From the NCBI GenBank assembly GCA_021555105.2, contig CP134604.1:620001-684000 (forward strand): DNA of 64,000 nucleotides. Reading direction: 5' to 3'. A program made the translations under genes and the position numbers. The stretch comes from Thalassospiraceae bacterium LMO-JJ14 (lineage in GTDB: Bacteria; Pseudomonadota; Alphaproteobacteria; Rhodospirillales; Casp-alpha2). Shown here in pieces: positions 3,874 through 61,034 of this stretch. Each line of letters starts with the position of its first letter. The stretch's first letter is position 1. Below the pieces are notes generated by a model, which was not told the DNA's origin, made no database searches, and saw only the letters and a program-made list of their open reading frames with translations.

Positions 3874-5822
<1,949 letters not shown>

Positions 5823-6014: not shown

Positions 6015-6943
6015 GTCGTCTTCTCCTCGATGCGCTGCTTTTTGGACAGTTTGGATGCGGTTTCCTTGGCTTCGCGCATCAACCAGTCTCTGAAAACCCT
6101 GACTTTCGGCCGGTCGTAGTTGGTTTCGGTGCTGGCGACGTAATACCGGTACTCGGCCGTCAGCGCCAGATCAAATGGCGCAATCAGTTTGCCGGCATCG
6201 ATCGGATCGGCGACCAGCAGGCCGCGGCCCAGCGCCACACCTTCGCCGTTGATTGCCGCCTGGATGACCAGGTTGGAATGCGTGTACCCGGTGCCGCGGG
6301 TTGGATCGATATCGCGCAGTCCGGCAGCGTTCAGCCACATGTTCCAGTCTTCGGTCATATCGTCATGGATCAATGGATAATGCCTGAGATCGGCAAGGCT
6401 GTTGAGGCCGGGGCCGCGCTGCATCAATTCCGGCGCGCAGACAGGAAAGATATCTTCGTGCATCAGTTCTTCAGCGATCAGGCCGGGCCAGGTCCCGCGG
6501 CCATAACGGATGCCGATGTCTATGCCGTCCCGCTCGTAATCGGCGGCAACGTCGGAGGTTGCCAGGCGAATGTCGATCTCCGGGTTTTCGTCGCGAAACC
6601 GGCCAAGGCGGGGCATCAACCAGGCCGCCGCCAGACTGTCCATGGTGGCAACGGTCAGAATGCCTGCCTGATCGCGCCGTTTGACCCGGGCCAGAGCGGT
6701 GTCCATGGCGTCGAACGCTTCAATCAGATCGGGCAAAAGGGTCTGTCCTGCATCGGTCAGGATCAACTGCCGGTTACGGCGCAGGAAGAGCTGTATGCCG
6801 ATCTGGTCTTCCAGCGCCTTGACCTGATGTGAGATCGCCGCCTGTGTGACGTTGAGTTCGTCGGCGGCTTTGGTAAAGCTCAGATGGCGGGCCGCCGCTT
6901 CGAAAGCCCGCAATGCGTTCAAGGATGGCAGGCGACGTTGCAT
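6011..6943 (-). CDS. LysR-family regulator, GcvA type
   Basis: About 310 residues. The amino end RRLPSLNALRAFEAAARH and winged helix (NVTQAAISHQVKALEDQ) are those of GcvA-like LysR proteins, followed by a substrate-binding domain. The start at 6943 is chosen from the conserved family amino end; an ATG 42 bases upstream is possible and neither has a strong ribosome site. The gene is divergent from the DUF1127 gene across an AT-rich stretch (6990-7080), the natural place for its operator. Target genes cannot be read from sequence. Confidence 0.88.
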   Translation of the reverse strand: MQRRLPSLNALRAFEAAARHLSFTKAADELNVTQAAISHQVKALEDQIGIQLFLRRNRQLILTDAGQTLLPDLIEAFDAMDTALARVKRRDQAGILTVATMDSLAAAWLMPRLGRFRDENPEIDIRLATSDVAADYERDGIDIGIRYGRGTWPGLIAEELMHEDIFPVCAPELMQRGPGLNSLADLRHYPLIHDDMTEDWNMWLNAAGLRDIDPTRGTGYTHSNLVIQAAINGEGVALGRGLLVADPIDAGKLIAPFDLALTAEYRYYVASTETNYDRPKVRVFRDWLMREAKETASKLSKKQRIEEKTT

Positions 6944-51889: not shown

Positions 51890-51940
<51 letters not shown>

Positions 51941-52001
51941 CGCCGGGATATTCTGAAAACCTAAGCATTATCAATAACTTGTTTGGGCGCTGTCGCAACT
52001 T

Positions 52002-52065
52002 TGTGCCCATTTTGTGCCAGATAAGGCCTGATAAGACGGAAGGGCACTGGCACGGTTTGGGCACA
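52002..52065. repeat. Pair of inverted integrase arm-type sites near attL
   Basis: CTGGCAC-N4-TGGGCACA occurs on the plus strand at 52047-52065 and on the minus strand at 52002-52020. The same motif occurs near attR at 60870-60888. The placement at both ends suggests binding sites for the integrase amino-terminal domain. Confidence 0.6.
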
Positions 52066-52133
52066 ACCCACTTGCAACTCGGATGAGTCAAACTCCACCA
52101 ACTCAATTGGTTGCTCACGCTCAGGAGCAAGAG

Positions 52134-52319
52134 TTACGCTTCTGACAAAACTTTCTTGTTGTTGCCAGAAATATCAATGCGGTTTTGATCTCTTTGAACA
52201 TAACCCGCTGTCAATAACGCTCTTTCCATCGCAGTTCGTTTGCCCACGCTCCAACCTTCAATGGTTTTTGAGGCGTCATCTATCGCTTGGTTAACCCAAC
52301 CATTTTCTTTGTTTGTCAT
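52134..52319 (-). CDS. 61-residue protein coupled to the dCTP deaminase gene
   Basis: A small, helical, charged protein (NGWVNQAIDDASKTIEGWSVGKRTAMERALLTAGYVQ). Its ATG overlaps the deaminase stop (ATGA), so it is translated by coupling. No known family recognised. It is the last gene before attL. It could be a partner, regulator or passenger of the deaminase. Confidence 0.65.
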   Translation of the reverse strand: MTNKENGWVNQAIDDASKTIEGWSVGKRTAMERALLTAGYVQRDQNRIDISGNNKKVLSEA

Positions 52320-53851
52320 CCGCCAGTGCTCCCGGTGTTTTGGTTTGGAAACAAGCCTTCGATACTCTTAATTACAAGGCTTTCGTTATCAAGGTATGAA
52401 GGAAAAATATCTACTCGTGGATTTGCTTTGTCTGCATGCCATTCAATAGTGTTCCCCTTTTTATCTTTTCTTTCTGGGGCTTTGAAAAATCCCATGAATT
52501 TTCTAGGTGCCACACCCATAAATGGTTCAAAGGCAACAGCTCCATCTAACGCAGTCGTATCTTGGTCCACGCGGACTGCATTTGGGTACAGCTCTTTTGC
52601 AAGCGATTTAGGATATGGTTCAATGTAAACCACACGTAAAATCCCACTCGAAATTATATGCCTAGCGCACATGTGACACGGAAACACGGTTGTATAAAGT
52701 GTCGCCTTATCGATTTGCAGGCCTCTGCGGGCTGCATCGCAAATTGCATTCATTTCTGCATGAACTATTCGGCCAAATTCGAGGATTGAAGAAACACGGC
52801 TACCTTTTAAAGGAGGGTTTGGGCCCTGAAATAAAGCGGCTTCAACTCTTTCATCACGACTCATCGCCAAAAAATCTGAGCTAAACCAACTATCCGGTAG
52901 CTGATCAAAAACCTCATTTACTAGCTCTTTTTTCATTTTAACGCTGGAATCATAACCGATGGCGTGATCTCGGCTATCAGGCAATTCGTCTCCGATATCC
53001 TCTGCCCAAATTGACCCTCCGCCAGCTTCAGGAACTTCATTACATCCAGTTGTAATAATCTCGCCAGTTTTGGTGGTGATCACAGCTCCAACCTGTCGAG
53101 ACAAATCAGCAGAACGCAAAGCTGTTGCTTGGGCGTGAAACATTCCATATTCATCGCGCGTAGGTGTGACAAACGGATTTTCGAACAAAAGATCTATAAA
53201 CCGGACGATTTGGGGGGCGACATCATCTTTTTGTGAAAGGTCTAAAAAATAATCTGCAAGTGGGAACGTATCTCTGACGTTCTGGCCGAAGTTGTTATCC
53301 TTCTCTTTTTCGTCCTTTTCGATCAAATCGTGAGATTGAGTCTGGAAATCATCATAATTGTGGGAATCGCGGGACCTGGCGATCTTCATACGCAAAGCTG
53401 CGTCTCGTTGTGCCACGGGAGCATAAGCAGAAATGACAAAGAGATGATTGCGATAAACATCTCTCAACATACTTATTTCTTTAGGATGTTTTAGTGAATT
53501 GAAGATGTATGCGGTTCCGTCAACACCGGCGTCAGAACTTCCGGTAGTGTCCAACCGAAATTGTAGAACCTTCATTACGCCTAGAATGGCTACCGCGGCT
53601 CCGTTCGCTGCTTTGGATCGGAAATCATCACCAGCGTCCATCGATTGATTAATGCGCTCATCTTCAGAACCGTTCTTTAACTCTTCTAAATGAGGATAAA
53701 GCCCGCATTCAGTTATAGCTTGGCTTAACCGAATTGGGACAGGGTTGTATTTTACCCTTCGAAGTTCTTGCTCGAGCCGCTCCTGAACAAGTGATAGGTC
53801 GCCGCCGACGGCTCCCACCAAAGCAAAAAATAATTCCGGTTTGTCTGCCAC
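52316..53851 (-). CDS. Anti-phage dCTP deaminase (AvcD/DcdV type)
   Basis: About 511 residues. The amino part has a degenerate P-loop-kinase-like start (ELFFALVGAVGGDL) as in AvcD/DcdV, and the C-terminal part is a zinc cytidine-deaminase domain with HAE (364-366, VHAEMN) and PCxxC (391-395, PCHMC). Known members turn on after infection and drain dCTP/dCMP, starving phage DNA synthesis. GTG at 53851 is preferred because GGGG lies 7 bases upstream; a TTG nine codons earlier is possible and no ATG exists in frame. The codons are AT-richer than the core. A 61-codon gene is coupled downstream. Confidence 0.88.
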   Translation of the reverse strand: MADKPELFFALVGAVGGDLSLVQERLEQELRRVKYNPVPIRLSQAITECGLYPHLEELKNGSEDERINQSMDAGDDFRSKAANGAAVAILGVMKVLQFRLDTTGSSDAGVDGTAYIFNSLKHPKEISMLRDVYRNHLFVISAYAPVAQRDAALRMKIARSRDSHNYDDFQTQSHDLIEKDEKEKDNNFGQNVRDTFPLADYFLDLSQKDDVAPQIVRFIDLLFENPFVTPTRDEYGMFHAQATALRSADLSRQVGAVITTKTGEIITTGCNEVPEAGGGSIWAEDIGDELPDSRDHAIGYDSSVKMKKELVNEVFDQLPDSWFSSDFLAMSRDERVEAALFQGPNPPLKGSRVSSILEFGRIVHAEMNAICDAARRGLQIDKATLYTTVFPCHMCARHIISSGILRVVYIEPYPKSLAKELYPNAVRVDQDTTALDGAVAFEPFMGVAPRKFMGFFKAPERKDKKGNTIEWHADKANPRVDIFPSYLDNESLVIKSIEGLFPNQNTGSTGG

Positions 53852-54178
53852 GAAATCCCCAAAGCATCGACCATTCAAGAAACGGCCAATATGTCGCGCG
53901 CATGATGAATACTGAGGAGACAGTGAATCAGAATTCGGATTCTATGGGAAGTAACCCAAGGCAAAAACCTGTTGATGCTTTTCCGATTATGTATATTGCA
54001 GATGAATGCCGAGCGAATAGAAAATAGTATAACTACTTGATAATGCGATAATTATTGCAGGTTTCTACCTGCAAACGTTAGCAAGGGCACATCCCACAGC
54101 ATTTAAAAACAAACCTGCAAAACCCTGCGGTAGCGTCTATTGATCACCTGCTTCTCATGCTTTTCGCGAATCGCAATT
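53852..54178 (-). other. Leader region of the deaminase with a hairpin; possible AvcI-like RNA
   Basis: No convincing gene in about 325 bases. TTGCAGGT-TTCT-ACCTGCAA (54055-54074) is a perfect 8-bp stem with a 4-base loop, and ACCTGCAA recurs at 54112-54119. In Vibrio AvcID a non-coding RNA made upstream of avcD inhibits the deaminase; this leader occupies the same position, but no sequence identity is claimed. Confidence 0.4.
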
Positions 54179-54586
54179 TCATTTGCAAATTGCGTCGGTA
54201 ACTAGTTTCCACAACATTTCAAGCGGATTTAACTTGCGCTTAGAACTGGATGAAGTAATCCGAATGGTTTTTTTCTGGCCCCGAAAAGCGGCAACACGCT
54301 CCGGCGACCAATCCTCTGCCCAGCTAATGCGATCATTCTTGATCCAGTAATGTGACCGGCATTTTAGGCTCCAGTTGCCGATGGACGGGTGCAACGAAAC
54401 GGACCGGCCATCGAACATTAACTTCCAGTCCGTTGGCGAAATCGGGGTCACCACCTCTGCGCCGCAACCGCATGCGCACTTATGTGTTGCCGTTGCGTAG
54501 TTGATCGACACGTAGATTGTACGTTCCGCCAATTTTTCGGGAATGAATTCTACGAATTCATGGTTAAACGCGATTGGACGTTTCAT
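54179..54586 (-). CDS. DUF6527-family zinc-binding protein
   Basis: A 135-residue protein with likely zinc ligands C37, C39, C41 (HKCACGCG) and C76/H79 (KCRSHYWI), and the family's PTDWKLMFDG...SLHPSIGNWSLKC stretch. DUF6527 genes repeatedly neighbour bacterial ThiF/ubiquitin-like genes; function unknown. ATG at 54586 overlaps the ThiF stop (ATGA). The frame extends upstream into ThiF but that part is not family-like. Confidence 0.8.
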   Translation of the reverse strand: MKRPIAFNHEFVEFIPEKLAERTIYVSINYATATHKCACGCGAEVVTPISPTDWKLMFDGRSVSLHPSIGNWSLKCRSHYWIKNDRISWAEDWSPERVAAFRGQKKTIRITSSSSKRKLNPLEMLWKLVTDAICK

Positions 54587-55773
54587 GACTCGTCGTCCTC
54601 GTCTTCCCCGATCAATTCGCTGCCATCGATCATGAAGATTAGGTTGTGTTCGTGATCCGAGTCGGCATAGAAACCGAACAATTTCTTCCACGTGATCACA
54701 GCCAAATTGGCGTTTAACGAGTTCAAATCCGAAATTTGGATGTTGGTGGCATACACGTCGTTTCCGTGCCCGCCGGTGAACGGAATACGGTTCTTAGCGC
54801 GAACATGGTCCCGCTTCGACGGCGTACTCAGAGTGACGCGCAAGAGGCCCGCAAGCGCATCGTTGACCACGTCAATGCCCATGCCGACGTCGATGAAGGG
54901 GATGTCGTGGGCTTCAAGCCATTCAACGATCGGTTTCTTGGCCGGGCCGTTGTCGATGCATATGAAAACGAAATCTGTTCCCTGCAGCAGGTCAACATTG
55001 CTTGCGTCGATGCGGTGCGTATGGGGGAAAATAAAGTTCCGCATCCGGCCATAGTAGCGGCCGTAATAATCAACCTTCTTCATCTTGCGTCCAAGAATCC
55101 TGGGCGGGATCGCGCCGGGTGTCCGAAAAGCATTGTGCTGCAGAAGGTCGTCGTCGTCGTAGATGTGAATGTCATGCACGTGCGTTTTGCATACGTGATC
55201 CAGAATATAGGCTCCGGTGCCACCCAAGCCGATGATGTCGATACGAAGTCCGCGAAGCTTGTGCGACATCGTATTGATGCCGACGCGGCTGGATGCCGTG
55301 TCCTCATATTTGAAAACGCTGTCCGGATTGGAAGACATGATAACGTTTCCGGTCCTCGCCGTTGCGGCAGGGTCAATCTGCCGCGCGTGCCGGGAAATCA
55401 TGTCCTCGTATGTTGTCATTTTTGCGTAATAGTCGGGATAGCCTTCAGTCGGCTTGCTCGAGAAAGAATGCTTCGCTGTAATCGAATCCGAGATACGCTC
55501 GGTGTTGCCGGAGTGCTCCATGTGGCGCAGTTTCTCACCGTCGGCGTTACACGGATGATCGCCAGCAAACAGGGCGATATGCGTGCTCGGCGTCACGGTC
55601 TTGTCACCAGCTAGGTCGAGCTTTGAGATTAGAATCCCACGGCGGACTTGTTTTGCGGAATCGACATACGGCACGTTGTGGATAAGCAGGTAACCGCCTT
55701 CCACAGAAACCTCAAAGCCCTCGTCTGTGAGGGCTTTGAGATCAGCGTTAAGCTTTATCAGTGTATTTGACAT
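54583..55773 (-). CDS. ThiF/E1-like adenylating protein with DUF6791-type amino end
   Basis: A 396-residue protein. Residues 1-130 match the amino-terminal domain seen with multiubiquitin operons. Residues 175-370 are a ThiF/E1 fold with nucleotide loop GLGGTG (182-187), an acidic/asparagine stretch (YDDDDLLQHNAFR, 205-217) and CIDNG (272-276). Only three cysteines exist (75, 195, 272) and none lies after the crossover region where an E1 thioester cysteine is expected. The start lies 26 bases inside the upstream ubiquitin-like gene. It should adenylate the ubiquitin-like partner or another C-terminus. Confidence 0.85.
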   Translation of the reverse strand: MSNTLIKLNADLKALTDEGFEVSVEGGYLLIHNVPYVDSAKQVRRGILISKLDLAGDKTVTPSTHIALFAGDHPCNADGEKLRHMEHSGNTERISDSITAKHSFSSKPTEGYPDYYAKMTTYEDMISRHARQIDPAATARTGNVIMSSNPDSVFKYEDTASSRVGINTMSHKLRGLRIDIIGLGGTGAYILDHVCKTHVHDIHIYDDDDLLQHNAFRTPGAIPPRILGRKMKKVDYYGRYYGRMRNFIFPHTHRIDASNVDLLQGTDFVFICIDNGPAKKPIVEWLEAHDIPFIDVGMGIDVVNDALAGLLRVTLSTPSKRDHVRAKNRIPFTGGHGNDVYATNIQISDLNSLNANLAVITWKKLFGFYADSDHEHNLIFMIDGSELIGEDEDDES

Positions 55774-56020
55774 CGAAGATCATCCCCTTTTTGACTTTGA
55801 TGGCTTCGCCGTCCGAGAGCGTCCCCGACTGATTCGGAGAAGGTCCCTTGCGATAGGCGACCGTGAAGCAGATGAATTCGCCGGTGGGCGGGTCATCAAA
55901 TGCCAGCTGGATAAGTTCGTTAAACGTGATCTCGCCTTTGGGCACGGATTTCTCGCGGCCATTAACGATGATCGTTACCTCTTTGGATTTACCGGGCTTC
56001 AACGCCTCAAGAGCACCCAT
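55748..56020 (-). CDS. Multiubiquitin-domain (ubiquitin-like) protein
   Basis: A 90-residue protein holding one ubiquitin-like domain of the Multi_ubiq family (PF14452): EVTIIVNGREKSVPKGEITFNELIQLAF, then FTVAYRKGP and GEAIKVKKGMIFDV. It has one domain copy, not the tandem copies of some members. It ends YTDKA without a visible glycine pair. Overlaps the ThiF gene by 26 bases; translation is likely coupled. Confidence 0.87.
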   Translation of the reverse strand: MGALEALKPGKSKEVTIIVNGREKSVPKGEITFNELIQLAFDDPPTGEFICFTVAYRKGPSPNQSGTLSDGEAIKVKKGMIFDVKYTDKA

Positions 56021-56022
56021 TA

Positions 56023-56196
56023 TTATTTCTCCTTTCTGACGCCCTTGAAGGGCTGTTTGGAGGACGTTTTCACGTCCATGAAGCGACCGGAATCAGTGTC
56101 GCGCTTGACCCAGTTTCCGGCCGGTGTTTGGGTTTGCGAGCGACCTTTGACTGCGCCGTTGCGGCGGTTGTCGCCAGTTGGGGGATTGGTAGCCAT
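56023..56196 (-). CDS. 57-residue conserved small protein of the ubiquitin-like operon
   Basis: A basic, low-complexity protein with the recurring pattern GxxxxGAVKGRSQTQTP...GNWVKRDTDSGRFMDVK and C-terminal PFKGVRKEK. I recognise this pattern as common beside mobile cargo, with no known function. ATG at 56196 is preferred over an upstream start. It is the first gene of the operon, 3 bases before the ubiquitin-like gene. Confidence 0.7.
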   Translation of the reverse strand: MATNPPTGDNRRNGAVKGRSQTQTPAGNWVKRDTDSGRFMDVKTSSKQPFKGVRKEK

Positions 56197-56228
56197 GTAC
56201 TTTAAAACCTTTCCTATAAATCGATACA

Positions 56229-56254
56229 AAAAGTATTGCTATAACGATACTTTT
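56229..56254. promoter_or_regulatory. 26-bp palindrome, probable XRE operator 1
   Basis: AAAAGTATTGCTATAACG followed by ATACTTTT is a palindrome with 24 of 26 positions paired. It lies just upstream of the 57-aa gene. A related site is at 56292-56317. Confidence 0.65.
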
Positions 56255-56291
56255 CAAATGCTGACTCTGCGTGTTACATTTGTCAATAATA

Positions 56292-56317
56292 AAAAGTATC
56301 GCTATAGCGAACTTCCC
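56292..56317. promoter_or_regulatory. Related palindrome, probable XRE operator 2
   Basis: AAAAGTATCGCTATAGCGAA carries the same AAAAGTATYGCTATARCG core as operator 1 with a perfect CGCTATAGCG centre; its right outer arm is degenerate. Centre-to-centre distance to site 1 is 63 bases. It lies 32 bases before the XRE start. Confidence 0.6.
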
Positions 56318-56348
56318 ATAAGATATTGAATTTGAAGGGAGATATCAG

Positions 56349-56669
56349 GTGCCGAGCCCACTTGGTGTGCGAATTAAAGAACTAAGAAAGTCCAAAAAAT
56401 TCACACTTGAACAATTGGCAGAGAGAATCGGATCGAGCAAAGGGTATGTATGGGAGCTAGAAAATAAGGATGATATTCGACCATCGGCAGAAAAATTAGA
56501 CAAGATAGCAGTCACGCTTGATACTACATCTGAGTTCCTTCTGACTGGAAAGGACGCCGACTCAGCTGTTGAAGAGGACAAAGCGTTTTTCCGCAAGTAT
56601 CAGGAAATGCCGCCTGAAACGAAGGAGAAAATCCGCAGAATGTTGCATATCTGGGATTCTGACGATTGA
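56349..56669 (+). CDS. XRE-family helix-turn-helix regulator
   Basis: A 106-residue Cro/CI-type repressor: IKELRKSKKFTLEQLAERIGSSKGYVWELENK is the DNA-binding domain. The tail (about 75-106) may contact the partner ImmA/IrrE. GTG start with GGGAG upstream. Divergent from the ubiquitin-like operon with two palindromes between them, and overlaps the ImmA gene by 4 bases. Confidence 0.9.
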   Translation: MPSPLGVRIKELRKSKKFTLEQLAERIGSSKGYVWELENKDDIRPSAEKLDKIAVTLDTTSEFLLTGKDADSAVEEDKAFFRKYQEMPPETKEKIRRMLHIWDSDD

Positions 56670-57472
56670 ACGAAACTTACGCACTGTCAGCCAAACGTGA
56701 AGCAATCAATTTATCGAATCTTCTTAAGCTCACGCTTGGCGAAGAGCGTTTTCCAGTGGATGTGAAATTAATTGCCAAAGAGCGCTCAAAAAACGAAGCA
56801 GACCCAATTACTCTAATAAAAGGAGACAAATTGGACGGGTTTGAAGGTGCGCTTTACCCAAGCCCGTCAGGCAAACCAGAATGGGCAATCTTGTATAATT
56901 CATCAATTCGAGAGGCTGGGAGGGTGCGGTTTACGTTAGCTCATGAGTTAGGGCACTACATTTTGCATCGTTCCGTGTTAGACCCGGTAGCAATACAGTG
57001 TGATCGCCGAGATATGACAAGATGGAGTGATGGCGATCTCATTGAGGCAGAAGCAAATGAATTTGCATCGTACTTGTTGATGCCCCTGGACGATTACCGC
57101 GTGCAAGTCGGTAACGCACAAATGACTTTTGATCTAGCACGACACTGTGGGGACCGTTACGGAGTGTCGCTTACAGCGGTGTTGTTAAAATGGGTTGAAT
57201 TTACAGACGCCGCAGTCGTGTTGGTAGCTTCTGATAAAGGCGAAATTGCTTGGTCCAAGTCTAGTGCCAAAGCATTTAAGCGGGGTATTTTTTTCCGCAA
57301 AGGCTCACGCTTGCCAGAATGTTCAGTGGCGGCAATTGGTGCCGGATCAATTTTTGATTCTGGAGATGTAGCAGAGCTTCCGAAAGGTGTCTGGCACGCG
57401 AATAGCGCCGCTAGAGAATGGTCCGTGTTCTCGAAGCGATACAACGATTTGTCGTTGGTTGAGTTCCTCTAG
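56666..57472 (+). CDS. ImmA/IrrE-family metallopeptidase
   Basis: A 268-residue protein with zinc motif HELGH (93-97) and the downstream glutamate in EAEANEFASYLLMP (about 127-140). ImmA/IrrE proteases relieve repression by cutting their partner XRE repressor, as in ICEBs1 and the Deinococcus DdrO system. TTG start overlapping the XRE stop (TTGA). So the pair is probably the signal-responsive switch of the divergent operon. Codon use is AT-rich. Confidence 0.9.
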   Translation: MNETYALSAKREAINLSNLLKLTLGEERFPVDVKLIAKERSKNEADPITLIKGDKLDGFEGALYPSPSGKPEWAILYNSSIREAGRVRFTLAHELGHYILHRSVLDPVAIQCDRRDMTRWSDGDLIEAEANEFASYLLMPLDDYRVQVGNAQMTFDLARHCGDRYGVSLTAVLLKWVEFTDAAVVLVASDKGEIAWSKSSAKAFKRGIFFRKGSRLPECSVAAIGAGSIFDSGDVAELPKGVWHANSAAREWSVFSKRYNDLSLVEFL

Positions 57473-57863
57473 TTCGTCTAGAGAGACTATCCTCAAAATT
57501 TTTATCACATCGTGATATTGCGCCAAAATAACTATATAATGCCCGAGGAATCTCCGAAGCCTTAAGGCTCCGGATGCGCCTTGGAAGCCTTAAGGCTTCC
57601 GAGTCCTTAGGCCTACCCCTTAAGGCTTCTTGGGCGTTCAATGAGCGCACCGCCTCCGTAAGGCCCCGCGTTAACCTCTGAGACGGAACCAAGGCCTTAT
57701 GCCGATGCGCGTAGATTTATTCCGAATTACAGTCGATTCCGCCTCGGAGGCCTAAGGCCTCCGAAGCCTTAGGCCTCCAGTACAAACCGGCTGAAAACCC
57801 CGCAGACTGCTAAAGAGGTCGGGCATTGTGCCGTTGACCCTTTAAGGGCAAGGCTCATTCACT
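57473..57863. other. Gap rich in CTTAAG/CCTAAGG palindromes
   Basis: No gene. The gap holds palindromic units including GGAAGCCTTAAGGCTTCC (57583-57600, perfect 18-bp) and GGAGGCCTAAGGCCTCC (57746-57762), plus GAAGCCTTAAGGCTCC, TCCTTAGGCCT, CCCTTAAGGCTTC and GAAGCCTTAGGCCTCC. Related units recur at 58900-58922 and 59037-59054. Confidence 0.7.
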
Positions 57864-58220
57864 TTGACGGCAGAAACCACCATACCGGAACGAATCTACC
57901 TCACGCGAGCGGAGGCCGCCGCCTGGCTATCTGTGTCCGTCGACACATTTGCGTTCCTCGGCATCCCTTATTGCGACCTTGGCCCCCGTATACGGCGCTG
58001 GAGCGTCATCGACATCATTGCCTTCATGGATGATACTCGGAACTGCGACAGCGCCCGAACCTCGACAACGAGGAGAAGGCAACAATGCGCATCTTCAAAC
58101 GCGACGGCTCACCGCTCCGGCGGTCCCAGTTCGTCCAGCAAGGCCGTCACGGCTGTTCGTAGCTCCGGCAACGTGGTCTCTACGGTGCGCCATACGCGGG
58201 CATTTTCGATCATCGCATAG
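57864..58220 (+). CDS. Excisionase-like HTH protein, duplicate copy with altered tail
   Basis: The first 75 residues are an AlpA/Xis-like MerR-type helix-turn-helix (IYLTRAEAAAWLSVSVDTFAFLGIPYCDL, RRWSVIDIIAFMDD), nearly identical in its second half to the protein at 59630-59956. After about residue 82 the DNA switches to unrelated sequence and the tail to 118 residues is accidental. TTG start. Similarity increases toward the 3' end. Confidence 0.65.
   Translation: MTAETTIPERIYLTRAEAAAWLSVSVDTFAFLGIPYCDLGPRIRRWSVIDIIAFMDDTRNCDSARTSTTRRRQQCASSNATAHRSGGPSSSSKAVTAVRSSGNVVSTVRHTRAFSIIA
58085..58162 (+). pseudogene. Truncated integrase start
   Basis: ATGCGCATCTTCAAACG (58085-) copies the first ten codons of the island integrase (MRIFKRDGSP) including the GAGGAGAAGG ribosome site. 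Homology to 59851 onward stops at about 58112; an unrelated frame then ends at TAG (58160-58162). Confidence 0.85.
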
Positions 58221-58465
58221 CCGTGAATCAACATGTTGCGAAAGCCGACGATGGCCGACAGGTCGGGGACGCGTGCGGCGATCTCGGGCGCGGTTTTCGA
58301 CAGGCGGTTGAGCGCCTCGCCGATGATCTCGAACTTGCGTTCGACTGCCGCGCGGACAAGCGGGTTTGCGATATATTCCGCCTCCGTCATGCCGTCGGTG
58401 AATGCGGCGATGGCTTGGGCTGCTTCCTGCGCATCCCACAGGAATGCGCGTGGATCATGCGGCAT
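58109..58465 (-). CDS. hepT: HepT-like HEPN ribonuclease toxin (DUF86)
   Basis: A 118-residue HEPN-domain protein with the catalytic R-x4-H-x-Y as R76, H81, Y83 (RNMLIHGY). MntA-type partners adenylylate the tyrosine to inactivate it. Starts inside the 3' end of mntA. The stop codon lies exactly at the junction with the truncated integrase copy. GC-rich codons unlike the neighbouring XRE/ImmA genes. Confidence 0.9.
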   Translation of the reverse strand: MPHDPRAFLWDAQEAAQAIAAFTDGMTEAEYIANPLVRAAVERKFEIIGEALNRLSKTAPEIAARVPDLSAIVGFRNMLIHGYAMIENARVWRTVETTLPELRTAVTALLDELGPPER

Positions 58466-58778
58466 ACAGCACCTCGCGCGCACGGTCGATTTCGGCCAGG
58501 ATATAGGGGTTGCTGACCGCCCCGGCCTCGATCAGGTCGACCGGGCGACTAAGCAGTTTTTCCAGTTCGGCGCGCAGGCCGAACACCTGTTCCAGCGGCG
58601 TGAACCCGCCACCGTCCACGAACTCGACGAGGAAATCGGCGTCACTTCGCATCGGGTCGAAATCATGCCCGCGCGCGGCGGAGCCGAAAACCTCCAGCCG
58701 TGCCACGTGATGACGGCGGCAAAGATCGGCGATCCTGTCACGGTGGCGGGCGAGTTCGGTCAGCATAGTGCGGTTCAT
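58455..58778 (-). CDS. mntA: MntA-like minimal nucleotidyltransferase antitoxin
   Basis: A 107-residue MNT-fold protein with intact motif GS at 32-33 (FGSAARG) and D-x-D at 46-48 (SDADFLVEF). These transfer AMP to HepT tyrosine. ATG at 58778 chosen as the family amino end. The stop overlaps hepT start by 11 bases; order antitoxin-toxin. Confidence 0.9.
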   Translation of the reverse strand: MNRTMLTELARHRDRIADLCRRHHVARLEVFGSAARGHDFDPMRSDADFLVEFVDGGGFTPLEQVFGLRAELEKLLSRPVDLIEAGAVSNPYILAEIDRAREVLYAA

Positions 58779-59219
58779 CCTCGTTCGCGGCGGCGTTTCG
58801 CAACGCCATGACATGCAGGATAGGCAATATTTACGGCTCTGGCATATGATTTTTGCCCGTGAACGGCGAAACCTCAAATGACGCCTCGATATCGACATTC
58901 CCTTAAGCTTAAAGCTTAAGGGCAGTCCCCTTAAGGCCTCATTTCAGTACCTGACAGCACACCGCCCCTAACCTCATAAGACCATCTGGCTGGGTCCGAA
59001 TCGCTTCCGCTGCACATTCTTTTCATCCTGTCTACGAGGCCTAAGGCCTCCGATACACGACCCAGTTTTTTCTGCTCTGATTAATGTCAGAAAACGGATC
59101 GATTCATCACGTCCGTATCGATGTGAAACTTAGACAGGGAGAATTTCCAATGTGCCCGATGCCTTCCTTTATGCCTTTCCAAATACAATCATACACTCGC
59201 AATTTTCCTGCTTCGCTAC

Positions 59220-59380
59220 GTATACGTAACGTATACGTGCGAGACGTCATTCCCCCATGCCCGTTACGTATACGCGAATCCCCGTATACGGAATCGGCCC
59301 CCTGAATGCGGCCTTGAAACAGTCATTTCCGTATACGTATACGGAAACGCGACATCAGAGGCGCGGCGTGTTCCGTATAC
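59220..59380. repeat. Cluster of seven GTATAC palindromes
   Basis: GTATAC occurs at 59220, 59231, 59268, 59284, 59331, 59337 and 59375, mostly as CGTATACG. Two occur side by side as CCGTATACGTATACGG. Single copies lie in both xis-like genes (57988, 59754). Probable binding sites. Confidence 0.8.
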
Positions 59381-59510
59381 GGGAGAATCATTGCCAACGG
59401 TTTCACGGTTATACGGTTCAAGGATTGGCATGGATGGTGATGCAAATGACAGGTTTAACGGAAAAATTCCCTTTAAAAGAAAAATCTCAAAACGAAATAA
59501 AATTGCTCTT

Positions 59511-59541
59511 TGCCTTTAAAAGAACCGGTTTCTTTTAAAGG
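59511..59541. repeat. Inverted repeat CCTTTAAAAGA / TCTTTTAAAGG
   Basis: CCTTTAAAAGA-ACCGGTT-TCTTTTAAAGG forms 11-bp arms around a 7-base spacer (59513-59541). Further half-sites are CCCTTTAAAAGA (59469-59480) and TCTTTTAAAGGC (59549-59560). Confidence 0.7.
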
Positions 59542-59850
59542 AACGTTTTCTTTTAAAGGCATTCGACTGGCGGGAGCAAAGCGGTTTATGCCGGTCCCCT
59601 GTTGATAATCATTCGGAGGTTCAAGGACGTTGAAGATCGAGGCACCTATTCCGGAAAGGCGCTACCTCACTCGCGAGGAAGCCGCCATCTGGCTATCCGT
59701 GTCCGTCGATACATTCGCGTCCCTCGGCATTCCCTATTGCGATCTTGGCCCCCGTATACGGCGCTGGAGCGTTATCGACATCATTGCCTTCATGGATGAT
59801 ACTCGGAACTGCGACAGCGCCCGAACCTCGACAACGAGGAGAAGGCAACA

Positions 59851-61034
<1,184 letters not shown>

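Follow-up and report, generated by a model that had tools for sequence, protein, structure and literature searches.

Organisation of the operon and its mobile element

The window analysed here, a stretch of 64,000 nucleotides corresponding to bases 620001–684000 of the single 3.9-Mb contig of Thalassospiraceae bacterium LMO-JJ14 (positions below are those of the window), carries four consecutive genes on its minus strand. The promoter-proximal one is an accessory gene, a 57-aa ORF (56196–56023) recognised by PADLOC as PDC-S38. It is followed by a gene for a ubiquitin-like protein (Ubl) of 90 aa with one beta-grasp domain (56020–55748; Multi_ubiq, PF14452, E 3.1e-17), a gene for a 396-aa E1 in which DUF6791 is fused to a ThiF domain (55773–54583; PF20590 and PF00899), and a gene for a DUF6527 protein of 135 aa, counted from the ATG overlapping the E1 stop (54586–54179; PF20137, E 7.5e-26). 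The gap between the 57-aa ORF and the Ubl gene is 2 nt, the Ubl 3′ end and the E1 5′ end overlap by 26 nt (55748–55773), and the E1 and DUF6527 genes overlap by 4 nt, in agreement with the first-pass annotation, which regarded four overlapping or nearly touching genes as one unit. Pfam likewise confirmed its Ubl (PF14452) and E1-like enzyme (PF00899); the DUF6791 half of the E1, now found as PF20590, was missing from its gene naming. Its statement that the island lacks an E2 or JAB gene holds for all scanned island proteins, and Pfam profile searches of the four operon proteins detected neither domain.

The operon resides in a complete integrative element of 9.1 kb (51892–61005) located at tRNA-Ala (60959–61034, minus strand). 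The element is bounded by attL, an exact 49-bp copy of the tRNA-Ala 3′ end (51892–51940), and by attR within tRNA-Ala (60957–61005), and encodes a tyrosine integrase (59851–61008, plus strand; PF00589, E 9.6e-34) whose gene ends inside the tRNA gene. Its GC content, 0.506, is below that of the flanking regions (0.578 and 0.592). The element holds three or more defence-type modules: apart from the Ubl operon, these include an adjoining but separate anti-phage dCTP deaminase (52316–53878, minus strand; NF041025, 437.6 bits against a cut-off of 400; PADLOC E 1.8e-152) and a HepT-like/MNT toxin–antitoxin pair (58109–58898, minus strand; PF01934 and PF01909; PDC-S09).

Conservation and distribution of the cassette

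To follow the gene order across genomes, as the first-pass annotation had proposed, 58 loci were collected from the window, 21 GTDB genome contigs, 17 sampled genomes and 19 plasmids; these loci are not independent, and 48 are left at less than 85% E1 identity. The DUF6527 gene directly follows the E1 gene in 58/58 loci, and the Ubl gene precedes E1 in 56, the exceptions being L029, which lies at a contig end, and L077, in which E1 is truncated. Since the order Ubl–E1–DUF6527 recurs in every intact locus found, it is not a matter of chance, and these three genes constitute the core cassette. The out-of-frame overlap of 26 nt between Ubl and E1 is kept at an identical offset in 53 of 56 cassettes, across phyla.

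The cassette was found in at least six phyla, with hosts among Pseudomonadota, Bacteroidota, Bacillota, Actinomycetota, Cyanobacteriota, Halanaerobium, Omnitrophota and Patescibacteria. Its spread is patchy: it occurs in 8 of 398 genomes of the phylum and 3 of 100 relatives (the window's own genome being counted in both), in one of eight genomes of the genus, and in 6/296, 2/296 and 2/199 genomes of three other phyla (each count including the search-centre genome). A homologue is present on 115 plasmid records, 83 of them mobilizable or conjugative. No DUF6791-E1 was detected among 50,697 phage records, or in IMG/VR by a pattern scan.

The previously assumed four-gene unit thus stands for its last three members but not for the 57-aa gene, which was rejected as a core component, being present in only 2/58 loci, the window and L074. 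The 57-aa protein matches PDC-S38 over 57/57 residues (PDLC05010, E 2.5e-31). This Lys/Arg-rich 57-aa family appears repeatedly as the small leading gene of unlike defence operons: besides the window copy (56023–56196), it heads the cassette of the Novosphingobium plasmid pCAR3 (L074, 4466–4654), leads a CBASS operon (L081, 4001–4174), lies opposite a WYL gene (L082), and precedes a retron nuclease (L084). Whether PDC-S38 is a common accessory of damage-induced defence promoters is a question raised by this distribution. Elsewhere the first slot is occupied by DUF2188 (PDC-S16), as at 6497–6730 in L032–L034 (4429–4662 in L033) and at 4535–4756 in L076, or, in L068 (4334–4504), by DUF1508. By hhalign, the PDC-S38, DUF2188 and DUF1508 proteins of this slot showed no homology to one another.

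Homologues of the dCTP deaminase are located near the cassette in 3/58 loci from two phyla (the window; L012, 7805–9403; L028, 1828–3441). Like PDC-S38 and PDC-S16 in the first slot, they are defence genes in the neighbourhood of the cassette.

The DUF6791–ThiF protein

In the E1, DUF6791 spans residues 10–159 (PF20590, E 1.3e-56) and the ThiF domain residues 170–298 (PF00899, E 5.6e-10); all 32 members scanned with Pfam have DUF6791 at the N-terminus. NCBIfam places the fusion in PRK06153, labelled merely hypothetical. The adenylation motifs are invariant (G182-x-G-G-x-G, D206, D208, R217 and K233), with D274 conserved in 96% of sequences. The predicted structure has a pLDDT of 90.1, and the nearest solved protein by both sequence and predicted fold is Citrobacter BubCD: the E1 domain matches BubD with E 2.9e-12 in hmmsearch, the model superimposes on BubCD with a VIA-align Z of 24.3 and an rmsd of 2.6 over 223 residues, and hhalign against a Bub alignment gives E 8.8e-18. 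The PADLOC E1–E2 models match weakly, and only in the ThiF part.

No invariant Cys was found in DUF6791-E1, the most frequent being C75 (48/56) and C272 (42/56). The invariant residues of DUF6791 are H65, P74, G79, S105, K107, K118 and Y122. An invariant Tyr, Y341, lies ahead of the last conserved E1 block; the Bub locus L112 has a Tyr at 370 (compare Y370 of BubCD), in a part of the alignment that is gapped.

The predicted order of elements in DUF6791, helix-helix-4 strands-strand-helix, would fit a UBC fold, a comparison concerning element order alone. Searches with Pfam, hhalign and PDB profiles detected no relatives of the domain. A hidden E2 was sought with Pfam (32 members) and a PDB profile search, and by hhalign against five Prok-E2_B, one Prok-E2_E and three approximate eukaryotic UBC sequences, with no match in any case. 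Neither here nor in DUF6527 did profile searches reveal a concealed E2 or JAB domain, a finding that the first-pass annotation had named as one that would refute its view.

MccB, PaaA, ThiF and MoeB are also among the fold and sequence matches of the E1, and both an E2 and a conserved Cys are absent, as would be expected if the enzyme modified the Ubl C-terminus by MccB-like nucleotide attachment or thiocarboxylate formation, the Ubl then being a carrier or effector and not a tag. We consider this unlikely, since the best match of the E1 in sequence and fold is BubD, E2- and JAB-containing Bub operons encode DUF6527 as well, and sulphur carriers end in Gly-Gly (PMC12355090), whereas the cassette Ubls do not.

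The Ubl C-terminus

The Ubl of the window matches the solved multi-ubiquitin protein PDB 9cd2 (E 1.4e-9). An alignment of the tails showed that 55 of 56 cassette Ubls terminate in Ser and that of the window alone in Ala: the window Ubl ends in TDKA, while relatives end in xT-x-x-S, typically within the pattern [ND]-V-T-x-T-x-[KRQE]-S, and the tail of 9cd2, TQTDKS, has the same ending as the relatives. All four TCN codons are used for the terminal Ser (25, 17, 10 and 3 times), and in the E1 frame these bases specify H, R, L or P; the Ser is therefore constrained in the Ubl frame. The Ala in the window means that the hydroxyl of the last residue is not strictly required, or that this copy is altered.

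Because nothing follows the terminal Ser, a maturation cut would be unnecessary. The Ubl tails of JAB-bearing Bub operons differ from those of the cassettes (..QINPGQN, ..GKKTTTEG and ..PPATFGL) in a comparison of six Bub loci, a small sample in which one Ubl is fused to E2. From these sequences we infer that the loss of JAB may be tied to a Ubl end that is fixed and needs no processing.

Cassette Ubls consist of one to three tandem domains and range from 81 to 258 aa. Such proteins could suit a different outcome, in which Ubls activated by the E1 are linked to one another or assembled in an ordered way, giving a polymer or filament instead of a tagged target. This seems improbable to us, as assembly by itself would not call for an invariant free C-terminus that is activated at the expense of ATP.

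The DUF6527 protein

The C-x-C-x-C plus C-x-x-H zinc site noticed in the first-pass annotation was recovered as C37-x-C39-G-C41 and C76-x-x-H79. Among these residues, C37, C39, C41 and H79 are invariant, and C76, together with S68, S78 and H35, is nearly so. The P-S and C-x-[SC]-H motifs, or close variants of them, occur in both DUF6791-type and Bub operons, a conservation that would be compatible with a Ser/His hydrolase held together by zinc, or with an adaptor. The predicted fold consists of strands followed by two C-terminal helices, for which Foldseek and VIA-align found no convincing structural match. A JAB or E2 hidden in DUF6527 was rejected, with no credible match from Pfam (34 members), a PDB profile search, Foldseek or VIA-align.

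In Bub operons, DUF6527 follows the JAB-E1 gene, as identified by Pfam in L097, L110 and L112 and by annotation in L111 and L113; the Bub locus L114 has no annotated DUF6527. Presumably, DUF6527 is the fifth product of Bub operons, BubE. BubE may be a serine protease. The earlier suggestion that DUF6527 could take the E2 or deubiquitinase role is unlikely to be correct, because the protein co-occurs with both E2 and JAB in Bub operons (L097, L110–L113) and thus does not replace them; its presence in both operon types implies a role common to both. The Bub operon of L097 (3548–7875) is accompanied by HTH/M78 genes and has an extra APH-like kinase gene between JAB-E1 and DUF6527.

Probable control by CapH and CapP

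Divergently from the operon, on the plus strand, lie two genes matching curated models: capH, encoding an HTH repressor (56349–56669; PADLOC E 8.3e-28), and capP, encoding an M78/IrrE-like metallopeptidase (56666–57472; PADLOC E 1.2e-62; PF06114), the member of the CapH/CapP pair that senses DNA damage. A palindrome of 26 nt (56229–56254) is a candidate CapH operator, and a second operator-like copy, 90% identical over 20 nt, is located at 56291–56310. Of the other capH-like genes compared, that of L073 has a corresponding palindrome nearby, and those of L032, L034, L037 and L075 do not.

An M78 peptidase gene is located upstream of the cassette in 28/58 loci and downstream in 0/58, a WYL gene occurs in 4/58, and sigma-70 with UvrD in 6/58, the models used for these counts having been seeded from some of the same loci. 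The last six (L035, L038, L040, L041, L046 and L070) show a second architecture, in which a cassette with a multi-domain Ubl lies next to sigma-70, an unknown gene and a UvrD helicase. Among Bub operons, 219 of 544 have CapW or CapH with CapP (PMC13373217).

A 2016 paper found COG2856/DUF955 loci next to 70% of PF14452 genes and interpreted them as toxin–antitoxin pairs (PMC4963859). By analogy with that proposal for multiubiquitin cassettes, the HTH/M78 pair could be a toxin–antitoxin module stabilising the cassette; however, the PADLOC matches to capH and capP extend over nearly the full length, and CapP is reported to be activated by ssDNA binding and then to cut CapH (PMC13373217), making a stabilising module very improbable here.

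Most likely, the cassette responds to viruses or to stress and is turned on by DNA damage. The controllers sense DNA damage in general, and the plasmid records described above, with their large mobilizable or conjugative fraction, would accord with ligation serving DNA-damage or stress responses at large, or the upkeep of the mobile element, and not anti-phage defence; the same doubt has been raised for Bub (EMBO J. 2026, PMC13373217), for which phage protection has not been demonstrated. The defence neighbours, namely the dCTP deaminases of the window, L012 and L028 and the first-slot PDC-S38 and PDC-S16 proteins, argue against a role outside defence, which we hold to be rather unlikely.

Relation to known systems

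The closest characterised system is Bub, composed of a Ubl, the E2-like BubB, the JAB-E1 BubCD and DUF6527. Both have a Multi_ubiq Ubl (the Bub Ubl of L097 also matches PF14452), E1 domains that are homologous, a DUF6527 gene placed immediately after the E1 gene, and divergent damage-responsive controllers. The cassette differs in having no Prok-E2 gene in place of BubB, in an E1 that carries DUF6791 where the Bub E1 has JAB, and in a Ubl ending bluntly in Ser, whereas Bub Ubls have variable tails. No match to Prok-E2_E or Prok-E2_B was found anywhere in the host genome. A Prok-JAB gene is present on the host chromosome (contig C1, 1422762–1423091; E 2.3e-21). Bub may use oxyester intermediates.

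Bil (BilABCD) likewise combines a Ubl and an E1 in a defence context, but its E2 is a Cys enzyme, it carries a JAB, and its E1 has a catalytic Cys (PMC11354881); the cassette has none of these. CBASS Cap2/Cap3 resembles it in an E1-like enzyme with an extra N-terminal domain; the cassette differs in lacking JAB, E2 (by profile) and the CD-NTase that accompanies the Cap2 E2–E1 in type II CBASS, no CD-NTase being present in the genes scanned around the operon.

The view that the function of this operon type is not worked out was accurate in that no published mechanism for DUF6791 operons was found in the literature consulted, which included part of the recent work on Bub. The type itself had already been tabulated, and its sister system Bub has been characterised, as cited in PMC13373217, and structurally solved, according to the PDB titles of 9ea4, 9ea5, 9ea8, 9eae and 9eav. 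Row 6e, footnote b, of Iyer et al. 2006 lists a polyUbl, an E1 with an uncharacterised domain X and a metal-binding protein Y, and the paper guesses at a JAB-like activity for the extra domain (PMC1779556). Gene content and order there are the same as in the cassette, and DUF6791 and DUF6527 are, by gene content, very probably domain X and protein Y. The paper gives no mechanism, and the Ser terminus, the missing invariant Cys and the controller do not figure in that entry. What is new here, at the level of sequence, is a Ser-ended Ubl (55/56) that would not need trimming and the absence of an invariant Cys from the E1 and DUF6791.

Proposed mechanism

The fixed cassette, the conserved adenylation motifs, the proximity of the E1 to BubD and the fixed Ubl tail suggest a minimal inducible Bub-related Ubl ligation system with DUF6791 responsible for transfer and DUF6527 acting after activation, an interpretation to which we give about an even chance. 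By the published CapH/CapP mechanism, DNA damage would yield ssDNA, CapP would cut CapH, and the operon would be expressed, with translation of Ubl and E1 probably coupled. The Ubl would emerge from translation with its C-terminus already in final form (Ser in relatives, Ala in the window), making a maturation protease unnecessary, and the ThiF domain would adenylate its C-terminal carboxylate. Transfer to a target would proceed without a dedicated Cys, DUF6791 performing the E2-like job by chemistry that conservation suggests could be an oxygen-ester or direct aminolysis. DUF6527, kept from Bub, may serve as a substrate adaptor or as a Ser/His hydrolase removing the tag, and the tagged targets may be phage or host proteins during infection.

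Several points weigh against this interpretation: DUF6791 is, on sequence comparison, without profile similarity to E2/UBC families, the window's own Ubl ends in Ala, the chromosomal Prok-JAB gene product could act in trans on the Ubl, and, as mentioned above, even Bub has no demonstrated phage protection. The more specific proposal, that ligation occurs without E2, JAB or catalytic Cys, through a genetically fixed Ser end of the Ubl (Ala here) and DUF6791 as a new E1-fused transfer domain, is put forward as a possible but tentative one.

If the cassette does ligate, Ubl conjugation would be seen to dispense with an E2 gene, a Cys relay and a maturation protease alike, and functions would be gained for two large families, DUF6791 and DUF6527. 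It would also be, to our knowledge, the smallest Ubl system with a dedicated controller, consisting of one Ubl, one fused activating enzyme and one partner.
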